Below, in pieces: positions 797 to 64,000 of a DNA stretch of 64,000 nt. Position numbers and translations under genes: made by a program. The notes beneath the pieces are model-generated. The model saw only the letters and a program-made list of their open reading frames with translations. It did no database searches and had not been told where the DNA came from. Origin of the DNA: Tribonema minus. Its lineage: Eukaryota > Sar > Xanthophyceae > Tribonematales > Tribonemataceae. The stretch lies in the NCBI GenBank assembly GCA_017506865.1, contig JAFCMP010000157.1:806001-870000 (forward strand), given 5' to 3'. Position 1 is the first letter of the stretch, and each line of letters begins with the position of its first letter.

Positions 797-913
797 CAGT
801 GTCCGCCGAGACGCCAGCCAAGTAGGCACCGGCCCTCAAGGCCAGGCCTGCAGTGTACCATTGTGAACTGCAGCACTGTACTGACGAAAACAATGTACTA
901 CTGTGAACTGCAG
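797..913 (+). repeat. Echo of exon 1 upstream of its acceptor
   Basis: Positions 797-853 are a diverged copy of exon 1 sequence starting at 937 (shared 'gtgtccnccnagacnccngccaag' pattern and 'aaggccaggcct'). Acceptor-like strings 'tgtgaactgcag' recur at about 860 and 902 before the real exon. Confidence 0.7.
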
Positions 914-3900
914 GGCGCCTGTCCGTTGGCAGCACGGTGTCCACCAAGACCCCTGCCAAGAAGGCTCCGTCTCCCAAGGCCAGGCCTTTGTCTGCCGGCG
1001 GCAGTGGCAGTGCTCAGCCTGGTGCTACGGCCCCTGCTGGCCCCAAGATGGTGCGCACAAACTCGTTCAACCGGCTTCACGAGGAGGCTCAGCTCAGGTA
1101 CGTGCATGATGATGGGTGTACTGTATGTGTACTCTAAGTGAACTCACGGCGGCAGTGGCAGTGCTCAGCTCGGTGCTACAACGCCTGCTGGCCCCAAGAT
1201 GGTGCACACAAACTCGTTCAACCGGCTCCATGAGGAGGCTCAGCTCAGGTATGTTTATGGGGATGGGTGTACTGTATGTGTACTGTAAGTGAACCTGCAT
1301 CGTACTTAGCATGAGCCATTCTTTTCCTGCAATGCAGTCAAGGCGCATCAATATACTTCCATTCATCCGGCTTCACAAGAGGGCCCAGGGCAGTTGTGTG
1401 TGTCATGTGTCGGTGTACTGCATATGTACCCTACATCAACTCATAGTAATTGTTGGCATTCAAATATAATGCAGGATGTGATGTGAGCCCTCGTATGGCA
1501 CCTTGCTATGAGTACCCTTGCCATATCAAGTGTTCGAACACCACGGGGCGGAGCGGCATCGACAACGGCGCGAGGCGGTGGAGGCTCAAGTCGTACCTGA
1601 TATGTCCACTCTTGAACTCTCGATGTTTACTGGTAAACACTTGAAGTTTGAGCCAGTAAGCCCTCATGTTCCACCATGACATGAAGTACCCTTGCCATAT
1701 GTACTGTGTACACAACACAGGGCGGAGCGGCAGCAGCAGCAGCGCGAGGCGGCGGAGGCCAAAGGCGTGCCTGATGTCTACAGTACTTCTGAAGTAGAAG
1801 TATGATGAAAGAAGCGCTTGAAGTATGCGCCAGTAAGCCTTGAGTTCCGTTTTGACATGAAGTACCCTTGCTGTACTTATTGTGTACACAACACAGGGCG
1901 GAGCGGCAGCGGCAGCGGCGCGAGGCGGCGGAGGCTCAGGACACGCCCACGTTCACGCCGGAGATCAGCTCGCACGCAAAGCGCAGCCGCAGCCTGTCGG
2001 TGTCGAGCACGTGCTCCGCGTTTGAGAGGCTGCACGGGGAGCGTACGGAGCTGGAGGCGCGCAGGTCAGTAGGTGTAATCTTCAACCAGTGACTCTTGTG
2101 CAGAGCTGGAGGAGCGTCACAGTGCAGCCTCTTCAACTAGTGACTTGCCTCACTAGGCGCAGCTGCAGCCCGCCGGTTGGAGATGTCTTCCGCATCGGAG
2201 CGGCTGCATGATGAGCGCTTGGAGCTAGAGGCTTGAAATGCAGTTGGAGTGTCACAAAGTGATATCCTCAATCGGCGACTCTCCTCACTGCTGCAGCGCT
2301 CAGGCGAGCGTTATGGGGATTGGGGCTGGCAGCTCGTCTTCGGCTAGGATCAACTCATGGTCTAGTTGAAGTTTTGAAGAGTGTCCTGACTGTCTGCGGT
2401 GGTGCCCACACACACGCGCATGGAAAGTGCAGCTCACAGATTACATATGATTGTTACATATGAATACATGTACGTTTGTCTCAGTGTGCCAATTCAGTCA
2501 TGTGGTGATCATATCGCAACGGCGACCTATCATGAATCATTCATGCGAATTCATGCGGTCATCCTCTCTCTGCTGCGTCGCCCATCAGGATTCATTCGTG
2601 CTGGCGTTGTCTCACGGCTGCGTCGCGTGCTAACCCTAACCCTAACTTTAACCCTTGTGCGGAGCAGGCAAGCGGTGGCCGCGCAGCTTAACCAGGAGTT
2701 GATGCAGCAGTGCACAGTTTCATACTACATGTGCATTTATCTCCATGGCACCCATTCATCCATGCGGTAATTGGCGGCCCATCATAGTTTCATGTTTTCC
2801 TCATGCATAATCATGCGGTCATCGTCTCTCTCTCTTTTAAGATGCGTGCTAACCCTAACCCTAACCCTCATGCGGAGCAGGCAAGCGGCGGCCGCGCAGC
2901 GCAACCAGGAGGTGATGCAGCAGTGCACATTTGCGCCCACAATCGGCCCCAACTTTGTCGCGGGCGTCGGCATGCCCGCGCAACCCAGGGGACGCTCCTC
3001 CAACCGCGCCAGCCTCGGCGGTGAAAGGTGAACATACACATATACCATATGTAGCAAATGTCATATCTCAATTGAAGTACTTCACCATACCAGCAAACCA
3101 TAAGCGTATCGTGCCCGCGCAACCCAGAGGACGGTGCTCCAACCGCGCCAGCCTCGGTGACGAAGGTGCAGAAGTACATAGCTATCGCCATGCATGCCGC
3201 ACTTCTTGGCGTGTAGCAGCGCTTTCAAAAAAACTGTGACTGGTGAGCACGCTTGAGCATAATGATTTCAACAATGTCAATGTCAACTTCAAAAGATGTT
3301 TGGTGCATGAACGCGCAACCCAGGGGACGCTCCTCCAACCGCTCCAGTGGTGAAGTGAACATACATGCATACTGAATGCAGGCATTCTTCACCGCGTCGA
3401 AAGGCATATGTACACACCATGCAGACCATGAAGTGTCGTGCATAGGAATGAACAGGGGACGCTCCTCCATTTGCGCCAGCCTCGGCCGCGAAAGGTGCAC
3501 TGCGAAGTGCACAACGGCCGTCATACATCCATACCGCACTCCTTGGCATGTGGCAGCGCTTTCAGAGCTCTTTTTCTGGTGCACACGCTTGCTGTAAAAA
3601 TGACTTCAACATTTGCTTCAATAGACAAACAAGCACGCGTAACCCAGTGACGCTCCTCCAACCGCGCCACTTGGCGGCGAGCTTACCTACTATTATGCAC
3701 CCCGCAGCGGGCAAAGCAATGCATCGCCACTTCTTGTCTTGTGGCAGCGCTCTCAACTGTTGCTAGTCCACATGCTGTGTCGCCATGTACCTCTGCGACA
3801 ATGTGCCTTGCAACAACTTCAACTTCAACAGAAAATTGCAGTTTGGCTTCGCTGATGCATGCTCCAGCTGTCTGGATGCCTTGGCAGATAAGTTTCCACT

Positions 3901-63300: not shown

Positions 63301-64000
63301 AAAGCGACCTGATGCTTCTGCTTGATACAGTAGGGACCTTATCAAGCTCTGTGCCCTTAGCCGGCTTCAAGGCAACTGCTTGCTGCATACCAAAAAAGAG
63401 GGCAAAAAAGTGCTGCGTTTGCGCCTATGTTCTTGGCCCAGATTGCACTAGACCAACGCCAATTTCACAAAAGAGCAATGTCAAGGACCGCCGAGTACGC
63501 ACGCCACTGCGTCTTCGCGGCGTGCAGTATCACAGCGTGCTGCGCGAGTTCGTTCGCCTTATACATACCTATTGCATACATACACACATACTTCATACCA
63601 TCACTCGCTACATTTGACATGTCATCCCTGACACGCTGCGACAGGTGGAGGTCGGCAACACGGGCCACCGCCTCTTCGGCGGCGCGCAGTACCACCGCGT
63701 GCTGCGCGAATTCGCCTTTGCCGTTCGCCACATGCCCTCCCCGGAGATCACCGACGACGAAATCGCCAACGCGGCGGGCATAGGCGACATGCACGACGGC
63801 GTGAACTTCATGCGCGCGGCGTGCGTGATCGCCGTGGAAAAGGCGCGGCTCGGATTCGATCCCCTGCTGGAGAGCTTGCGGGTCAGGGCGGTGCACGTGC
63901 TGCGGCGGCTGTTTGCAGTGGTGGAGCACATGCTCAAGCGCGAGGGGCTGACGATGAGCGAGAGCCACCAGAAGCCCTTTTCGTTCATCGTGCGCCGCAT
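54068..64000 (+). CDS. ARC5: ARC5/DRP5B-like plastid-division dynamin (3' end outside window)
   Basis: A dynamin-family GTPase that constricts dividing plastids from the cytosolic side in plants and algae. Exons, all phase-consistent: 54068-54361, 55931-56148, 57884-57949, 58803-58938, 59430-59549, 60816-60955, 61331-61552, 62336-62423, 62843-63043 and 63645 to the window end, giving about 613 residues. Landmarks: [13 protein letters not shown] (first exon), P-loop GHQTSGKS near residue 113, GGGTKTRRP (G2), IQAYIEAENKRLE (ARC5-specific stretch), LIDTPGLI (G3), CVEDTTDW, CTKLDTKLPQFSS (G4), PFFTSVPSGRVG, PPDQFGETL, GGAQYHRVLREF and ACVIAVEKAR. All these match plant ARC5 closely in order and wording. 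The chosen ATG gives a hydrophobic stretch at residues 17-33 and then a basic Ala-rich stretch, like a signal plus transit-type presequence. Most introns carry exon-edge copies. Confidence 0.93.
56160..56545 (+). repeat. Donor-side echoes of dynamin exon 55931-56148
   Basis: After the true donor at 56149, 'ggaggcatcgcggtgagcat'-type junctions recur near 56253, 56351, 56443 and 56535, a regular 92-104 base period. Each is followed by a copy of the first intron bases ('cttcaacactgatttgaac'). Confidence 0.85.
58012..58175 (+). repeat. Two donor-side echoes of dynamin exon 57884-57949
   Basis: 'gaggcggagaacaagcgcct' then 'gatcccatcag' before GTAT is repeated at about 58015-58054 and, more decayed, at 58116-58156. 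Confidence 0.9.
58683..58740 (+). repeat. Acceptor-side echo of dynamin exon 58803-58938
   Basis: 'ctgcgcaggtcatttgacgc' then 'atcagaatggag' copies the real exon start 111 bases downstream. Confidence 0.92.
58985..59215 (+). repeat. Donor-side echoes of dynamin exon 58803-58938
   Basis: 'caggcgcccaggggtaag' with 'ctcaacgctcagcaacaagc' and CAG before GTATGTA lies at 58990-59043. Weaker copies lie near 59090-59105 and 59168-59195. Confidence 0.85.
59676..60150 (+). repeat. Five donor-side echoes of dynamin exon 59430-59549
   Basis: The exon end 'ccaccacgcgcaacgtcgtc' with 'atgcag' before GTATG recurs in decayed form near 59680-59704, 59770-59830, 59893-59929, 60008-60030 and 60105-60131. Confidence 0.85.
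61020..61256 (+). repeat. Intron made of one donor-side and one acceptor-side echo
   Basis: Within the 375-bp intron 60956-61330, 61020-61077 copies the end of the preceding exon ('tacagcggcctgctgggcgg' before GTACGT) and 61186-61256 copies the start of the following exon ('gtgccatcgggccgcgtcgg' after a GCCGCA acceptor-like string). Confidence 0.95.
61600..62115 (+). repeat. Five donor-side echoes of dynamin exon 61331-61552
   Basis: 'ggcgtgtcacggctcaggcg' then 'cttcctggagcg' and 'gaagattgctaccg' before GTGAGTT recurs with junctions near 61680, 61786, 61903, 62013 and 62109. The first copy is nearly perfect over about 65 bases; spacing is about 95-130 bases. Confidence 0.95.
62650..62722 (+). 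repeat. Acceptor-side echo of dynamin exon 62843-63043
   Basis: CAG then 'gcgctgagcttagaccagct' through 'gagcactttgtgc' copies the exon start 188 bases downstream with only about three differences over 60 bases. Confidence 0.95.
63480..63565 (+). repeat. Acceptor-side echo of dynamin exon 63645 onward
   Basis: 'cgtcttcgcggcgtgcagta' and 'cgtgctgcgcgagttcg' copy real exon text at about 63690-63712 ('cctcttcggcggcgcgcagt' and 'cgtgctgcgcgaattcg'). Confidence 0.9.

Follow-up and report, generated by a model that had tools for sequence, protein, structure and literature searches.

Serial copies of neighbouring exon edges in introns of the yellow-green alga Tribonema minus: a probable record of tandem duplication across existing splice junctions

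Introns of the yellow-green alga Tribonema minus contain serial, partial copies of the edges of their neighbouring exons. The copies have been recognized in a stretch of 64,000 nucleotides of the nuclear assembly (C157:806001-870000; 158 Mb, 554 contigs), which as a whole is called the window here and which carries a dynamin-type GTPase gene, a kinase gene and a further gene that is unnamed; a copy of a neighbouring exon's edge inside an intron is called an echo. It has been confirmed, within this one assembly and with the kinesin family added to the dynamin and kinase families and the unnamed gene, that such copies are real and extend beyond the 64-kb window. Changes in the copies are free of coding constraint, whereas the real exon stays conserved. 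The best explanation, to which a probability of about 0.6 is given, is a tandem DNA duplication across an existing splice junction that has been repeated and amplified in blocks, perhaps with renewal of the exonic part.

The ten exons of the dynamin gene join to one open frame of 574 codons with zero echoes included, and the kinase gene model likewise has ten exons, with a start at 11450 and a match to the Pkinase domain. The dynamin gene and its echoes (shifts in bp, negative on the acceptor side; percentages are identities) are as follows.

54185-64000, plus strand: dynamin-type GTPase gene of 10 exons, truncated by the window end
54185-54361, 55931-56148, 57884-57949, 58803-58938 and 59430-59549, plus strand: dynamin exons 1-5
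60816-60955, 61331-61552, 62336-62423, 62843-63043 and 63645-64000, plus strand: dynamin exons 6-10
57950-58260, plus strand: donor-side echo array of exon 57884-57949, shifts 104 and 206
58653-58732, plus strand: acceptor-side echo of exon 58803-58938 with intron flank, 82%, shift -108
58986-59195, plus strand: donor-side echoes of exon 58803-58938, shifts 102 and 270
59674-59936, plus strand: three donor-side echoes of exon 59430-59549, shifts 156, 280 and 373
60678-60753, plus strand: acceptor-side echo of exon 60816-60955, 11 bp exonic plus flank, shift -81, exon-likeness not confirmed
61021-61079, plus strand: donor-side echo of exon 60816-60955, 90%, shift 117
61175-61255, plus strand: acceptor-side echo of exon 61331-61552, 84%, shift -136
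61622-62026, plus strand: four donor-side echoes of exon 61331-61552, shifts 129, 232, 353 and 465 at 92, 86, 84 and 83%, with alternating flank types
62631-62713, plus strand: acceptor-side echo of exon 62843-63043, 88%, shift -186
63503-63552, plus strand: acceptor-side echo of the exon starting at 63645 (exon positions 20-70), 86%, shift -161

For the kinase gene, the following features have been assigned.

11450-11945, plus strand: kinase exon 1, open frame with AG/GT edges, parent of the following array
12049-12839, plus strand: donor-side echo array of kinase exon 1, at least 5 copies, shifts 164-886
14122-14193, plus strand: donor-side echo of kinase exon 13937-13996, 12 bp exonic, shift 137
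15181-15514, plus strand: donor-side echoes of kinase exon 14990-15121
17411-17433, plus strand: short acceptor-side echo of kinase exon 17570-17627, 15 bp exonic, shift -151
17783-18119, plus strand: acceptor-side echoes of kinase exon 18175-18342, 14-21 bp exonic
19103-19431, plus strand: three donor-side echoes of kinase exon 18801-19039, shifts 93, 211 and 387

In a self-BLAST of the window, repeat pairs on the same strand numbered 82, with 76 separated by less than 1 kb, and inverted pairs numbered 12; 16 of the 17 local repeat families in the dynamin and kinase models overlap an exon. With exact edges, copies occur at 16/36 edges and in 13/18 introns of the two genes; together with copies at 4/5 tentative exons of the gene upstream, this makes the 'about 15 introns' with 'one to six copies' of the initial annotation about right. 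Extension to the kinesin family was based on 132 listed motor-domain Pfam matches, 125 of which are held by 40 fetched loci and 7 of which lie outside them. Each of these exon pieces, whose edges are mostly Pfam match ends with an accuracy of a few bases, was used as a query on the locus it came from, in which every piece had been masked. A same-strand copy was found for 45/125 pieces, in 24/40 loci, and an inverted copy for 0/125. Among mismatched exon-locus pairs, matches amounted to 6/4875 on the minus strand and 258/4875 on the plus strand, the latter excess probably because kinesin exons resemble one another. The comparison with random pairs, on whose outcome the initial annotation had let its claim depend, thus places own-locus matches (45/125) far above the mismatched inverted ones (6/4875), and a chance origin of the exon-copy matches is excluded.

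At locus L024 the same-strand match is distant low-complexity text, which leaves 44/125 pieces with copies within 1500 bp; copies shifted by more than 1500 bp are excluded from the set used in the following, and the Pfam match at L010 1824-1893, taken as an echo, is kept in the counts. This set comprises 127 copies from 54/145 exons (44/125 kinesin, 7/10 dynamin and 3/10 kinase), 69 on the donor and 58 on the acceptor side. A copy holds 20-126 bp of exon text plus the splice signal, and the spacing is 86-236 bp in 114/127 cases. When 24 kinesin introns are added to the exact-edge set (from 33 contiguous ones, those without assignable GT-AG edges being dropped), copies are present at 29/84 edges and in 23/42 introns, the kinesin share being 10/24 introns. 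Of the bases of these 42 introns, 12.6% lie in recognisable copies; the share is 27.5% when everything from the exon out to the farthest copy is counted. The occurrence in unrelated gene families, noted initially for two of them, therefore holds: echoes are common in dynamin, kinase and kinesin genes alike. The stretch from exon to nearest copy measures at least 43 bp (n=60; stretches below 30 bp or with a shift above 260 excluded) and successive copies are at least 86 bp apart (127 spacings), a lower limit that may partly be a matter of detection.

The copies are bound to splice junctions. Within 3 bp of the edge of an exon piece lie 52/69 donor-side and 42/58 acceptor-side copies (94/127 together). 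After the exons have been masked, one end still abuts a splice site in 11 of 28 intronic repeat families, where 1.6 are expected (P=1.4e-7), and text of the flanking exon edge is found in 20/28 families compared with 2/84 controls. The exact-edge test was used here, since a circular-shift edge test was only weakly enriched. These results support the adjacent exon edge, with its splice signal attached, as the source of the copies.

The material that was duplicated can be narrowed down by the intron flanks. The flank of the copy is related to that of the exon (z>3) in 54/124 exon-echo pairs compared with 7/508 controls, and not detectably related in 70 pairs; at 25/32 multi-copy edges one copy or more passes z>4, a level reached by 0/508 controls. 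It follows that DNA across the junction was duplicated for at least part of the copies. Similarity extends at least 6 bp past the junction into the intron in 55/71 matches. This crossing of the junction and the co-duplicated flanks argue for DNA and against an origin of the copies from mRNA. Copies of one edge also share their exon endpoints (mean deviation 7.1 bp versus 12.3 bp; 0/5000 regroupings as low), so that the arrays seem to have expanded chiefly out of one initial unit, with new independent copies of the edge playing a smaller part.

With respect to age, the initial annotation had proposed that similarity to the exon falls with distance, which stands as a tendency but not as a rule. 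The nearest copy is more exon-like than a farther one in 34 cases, less so in 13 and tied in 11; over all copy pairs, the nearer one is more exon-like in 50, less in 30 and tied in 18, and by edge the trend is 18 versus 7 (p=0.043). There are strong exceptions at L021, where five copies 624-1123 bp from the exon have 91-97% identity, at L004, where the farthest copy is the best match to the exon, and at L024. Copy-exon identities range from 72 to 100% and reach at least 94% in 28/127 copies, suggesting a recent or ongoing process.

Paralogs of the dynamin gene give a further view on founding events. The closest protein relative of the window's gene is JKP88DRAFT_201174 of T. minus (P0001; 89% over 97% of the query), and a second T. 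minus protein, JKP88DRAFT_309594 (P0094), matches it at 97% across half of the query; it is concluded that contigs C490 and C112 bear paralogs of the gene. The in-window part of the last dynamin exon shows 87-90% identity among the window, C490 and C112. The first acceptor-side copy on C490 matches its own exon at 93% over 91 bp and the others at 87% and 82%, the second at 92% over 49 bp versus 90% and 84%, and the copy on C112 at 92% over 131 bp versus 86% and 81%. The reach into the exon differs among the paralogs, which fits separate founding events. In a test of age across the paralogs, 2/49 mismatches were found where about 4 are expected, a difference that is not decisive.

Taken as a mechanism, the favoured explanation would run as follows. 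Genomic DNA straddling an existing splice junction would be duplicated in tandem. The outer junction, joined to the coding exon, would stay in use, and the new copy would land in the intron, where it would be neutral, with the intron lengthening by one unit per duplication. Duplications of whole exons or of exon interiors would alter the protein and hence be lost. Arrays would expand via further duplication of one or two units. In the least certain step, exonic blocks might be renewed from the real exon by short-tract conversion, a renewal that is proposed because exonic blocks are often much closer to the exon than the adjoining flanks are. More tentatively still, and with doubt outweighing confidence, splice junctions of this lineage could be duplication hot spots at which the coding exon serves as a standing template that rewrites the decaying intronic copies.

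A number of observations weigh against tandem duplication across junctions and are given here and in the two following paragraphs, along with the rival explanations on which they bear. Local tandem duplication might be ordinary throughout non-coding DNA and be noticed at exon edges only through the conservation of exons. Tandem repeats do occur mid-window outside the gene models (22848-22971, 23329-23541 and 37483-39599), and local direct repeats cover 17.6% of the kinesin-locus bases. In the crude edge test, Pfam match ends fall inside local repeats in 49/250 cases compared with a mean of 34 and a maximum of 48 in 300 circular shifts, which is a modest excess. Under a strict rule applied to 33 contiguous kinesin introns, an exon piece is touched by 14 of the 23 families present; the other 9 count as intron-only, although some end within 8 bp of a piece. 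Equally, exon text was not confirmed at z>5 in 8/28 intronic families, including the dynamin intron-2 family at 56245-56567 (z 0.1). On the other hand, purely ordinary duplication is rendered improbable by the junction-flush families that persist after masking of exons, by the exon text in most intronic families and by the unequal similarity of flank and exonic part.

Could the copies be alternative or mutually exclusive exons? Some retain frame and splice signals, for example 61622-61795 as read from the sequence, and their splice dinucleotides outlast other intronic ones, with GT retained in 33/40 donor and AG in 20/24 acceptor echoes at baselines of 58% and 75% for other intronic and 77% and 79% for exonic dinucleotides. 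This retention, above the intronic and near the exonic level, comes with no clear sign of echo splice-site use; some of the sites may be in use. The unpolarised mismatches between exon and copy are distributed 164:153:381 over the codon positions with a raw dN/dS of 0.28, which is below the expectation for free copies beside a conserved exon under equal rates; polarised counts have therefore been relied on. Changes private to echoes are spread evenly over codon positions (82:75:101 at 32 edges with at least two copies, chi-square p 0.12; 52:49:56 at 17 edges with at least three copies, p 0.79), while changes private to the exon versus all copies are not (3:0:25, p 2e-9). This agrees with the initial view that the copies are decaying; they are not conserved as coding text. 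Furthermore, 29 of the 127 echoes carry gaps and 10 an in-frame stop ahead of any gap, the dynamin frame is complete without echoes, and P0001 and P0094, compared by eye, hold the text of the last dynamin exon once and lack the echo text. Use of the copies as exons is accordingly very unlikely.

The flanks pose a puzzle. For a simple duplicate spanning the junction, flank similarity is expected to about equal that of the exonic part. The average similarity profile, however, drops about 8 bp beyond donor sites; the flank reaches z>5 in 33/124 pairs, whereas simulated flanks of 80% identity all do so; and it stays at z<=3 in 44/83 pairs with at least 87% exonic identity. At L029, one copy is identical to the exon at 55/56 exonic positions beside an unrelated flank. 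A plain duplication clock thus does not hold for about half of the pairs. At 9/25 related-flank edges, such as the donor edge of dynamin exon 61331-61552, a copy other than the nearest is the best partner by flank. In the window, the copy of the last dynamin exon is about equally near to all three paralog exons (86, 86 and 87%) and does not help to show separate founding events. Mosaic copies, as expected from conversion tracts, were not detected among 81 echoes (5 at p<0.05, Fisher p=0.50), a result that neither supports nor excludes conversion because the exonic blocks are short. Stepwise tandem duplication followed by decay, as suggested in the initial annotation, therefore survives in part: duplication of the junction is visible (a related flank at 25/32 edges), but as the only process it does not account for the flank mismatch.

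Exon-templated renewal or duplication with filler could cause this mismatch. The main rival is a long duplication with insertion of filler: a staggered break at the edge of the exon would be repaired by fill-in, such that a few tens of bp of exon text and the splice signal are copied with unrelated filler between. The early loss of similarity past donors, the very young copy with an unrelated flank at L029 and the uniform distribution of mismatches along copies would all fit. Equally, the DNA that separates an exon from its nearest copy measures 43-199 bp (n=60), and 56/60 of these stretches are without a match at E<=1e-3 in other fetched loci. Flanks related far above controls are at odds with filler, as are exon endpoints shared within an edge even where flanks are unrelated (within 3 bp in 14/42 pairs, 4.5 expected), and filler as the general explanation is judged rather unlikely. 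Under junction-spanning duplication, the arrays are read as having grown partly in two-unit blocks, with exonic blocks refreshed from the exon.

The filler stretches also bear on the thought that mobile, introner-like introns are involved. Copied text does adjoin splice signals, and 4/60 fillers match another fetched locus, the best at 92.5% over 40 bp. The repeated text is, however, the gene's own exon edge, the remaining 56 fillers find no counterpart in the about 350 kb compared, and AG/GT at the far end of the fillers is at background (9/31 at 28% and 10/29 at 36%). Within the about 350 kb of fetched sequence an introner origin of the filler has no support, and this explanation can hardly be credited.

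At 0.8-5.2 kb of the window, five tentative exons of the unnamed upstream gene join into a single open frame, with the following features.

917-1097, plus strand: tentative exon, its end copied at 1147-1248 (92%, 102 bp, shift 151)
1147-1248, plus strand: donor-side echo of exon 917-1097
796-849, plus strand: upstream copy of exon text 934-987, 81%, 54 bp, shift -138, not flush with the tentative exon start
2157-2232, plus strand: donor-side echo of tentative exon 1897-2064, 74%, 78 bp
2668-2719, plus strand: acceptor-side echo of tentative exon 2881-3027, 90%, 52 bp, shift -213
3112-3680, plus strand: four donor-side echoes of tentative exon 2881-3027, shifts 139, 335, 467 and 659, 83-93%
4962-5139, plus strand: two donor-side echoes of tentative exon 4755-4860, shifts 142 and 279, 88-92%

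Telomere-like CCCTAA tracts have been read by eye within introns at 2632-2655, 2849-2870 and 13880-13920 and at about 8925-8945 of L029, one such tract directly abutting the end of a young echo; the overall count of CCCTAA in the window is near expectation (20 versus 14). The hexamers CTTCAA and TTGAAG occur about fivefold over the base-composition expectation in the window (50 and 58 versus 11) and are, by eye, often intronic. Collinear, near-equal kinase matches on contigs C90/C179 and C144/C223/C278 suggest duplicated or allelic contigs, which would lend themselves to the detection of recent duplications. Elsewhere in the window, an open frame of 922 amino acids on the minus strand (34577-37345) contains a C5 cytosine DNA methylase domain (PF00145, E 5.9e-18), followed by a stretch that resembles a Ty3-type reverse transcriptase by eye and has no Pfam hit. 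DNA methylase genes occur in retroelements. The tandem array at 37483-39599, located 138 bp beyond this frame, consists of about 5.4 copies of a 393-bp unit at 99.6% identity.

The lengthening of introns is mostly explained by mobile elements. No account of existing introns being lengthened serially out of exon edges was found in the open-licence papers searched. Many introns of T. minus hold a readable record of local growth with the conserved parent text next door as a reference, by which the rate of intron growth, its unit size and its positional bias become measurable inside one genome. If the exon does act as a template, introns would grow by a continuing conveyor, and an exon and its own intron would be in concerted evolution. 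On the practical side, gene finders are at risk as copies resemble exons; copies such as the apparent echo at L010 1824-1893, matched by Pfam as a kinesin exon, may mislead gene prediction in this genome.

Tandem duplication and break repair are recognised routes of intron gain (PMC3443670, PMC2891723). In the tandem genomic duplication model of Rogers (1989), an exonic segment with AGGT is duplicated and a new intron is made (PMC4974935, PMC3443670). The local direct tandem repeat of exon text including the splice signal is seen in T. minus as well, where, unlike in the model, the junction that is duplicated would have existed before and no new intron is needed; instead of segments inside an exon, 94/127 copies lie within 3 bp of an existing edge. 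In a potato RdRp gene, one tandem duplication across an intron-exon boundary has been described (PMC4974935), a single event with a new intron, whereas in T. minus existing introns appear to grow at both edges, in serial arrays and at many junctions. Intron gain by break repair equally leaves text repeated on both sides of the inserted DNA; its direct repeats are short, however, compared with the 20-126 bp of exon text in T. minus, which is serial and has related flanks in 54/124 pairs. Introners, families inserted at many places and in some cases with target duplications of 3-9 bp (PMC9860276), resemble the present case in that intron sequence is multiplied within a genome, but dispersed related copies are not characteristic here, only 4/60 fillers matching anywhere in the about 350 kb of fetched loci: the text that is copied in T. 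minus is local.

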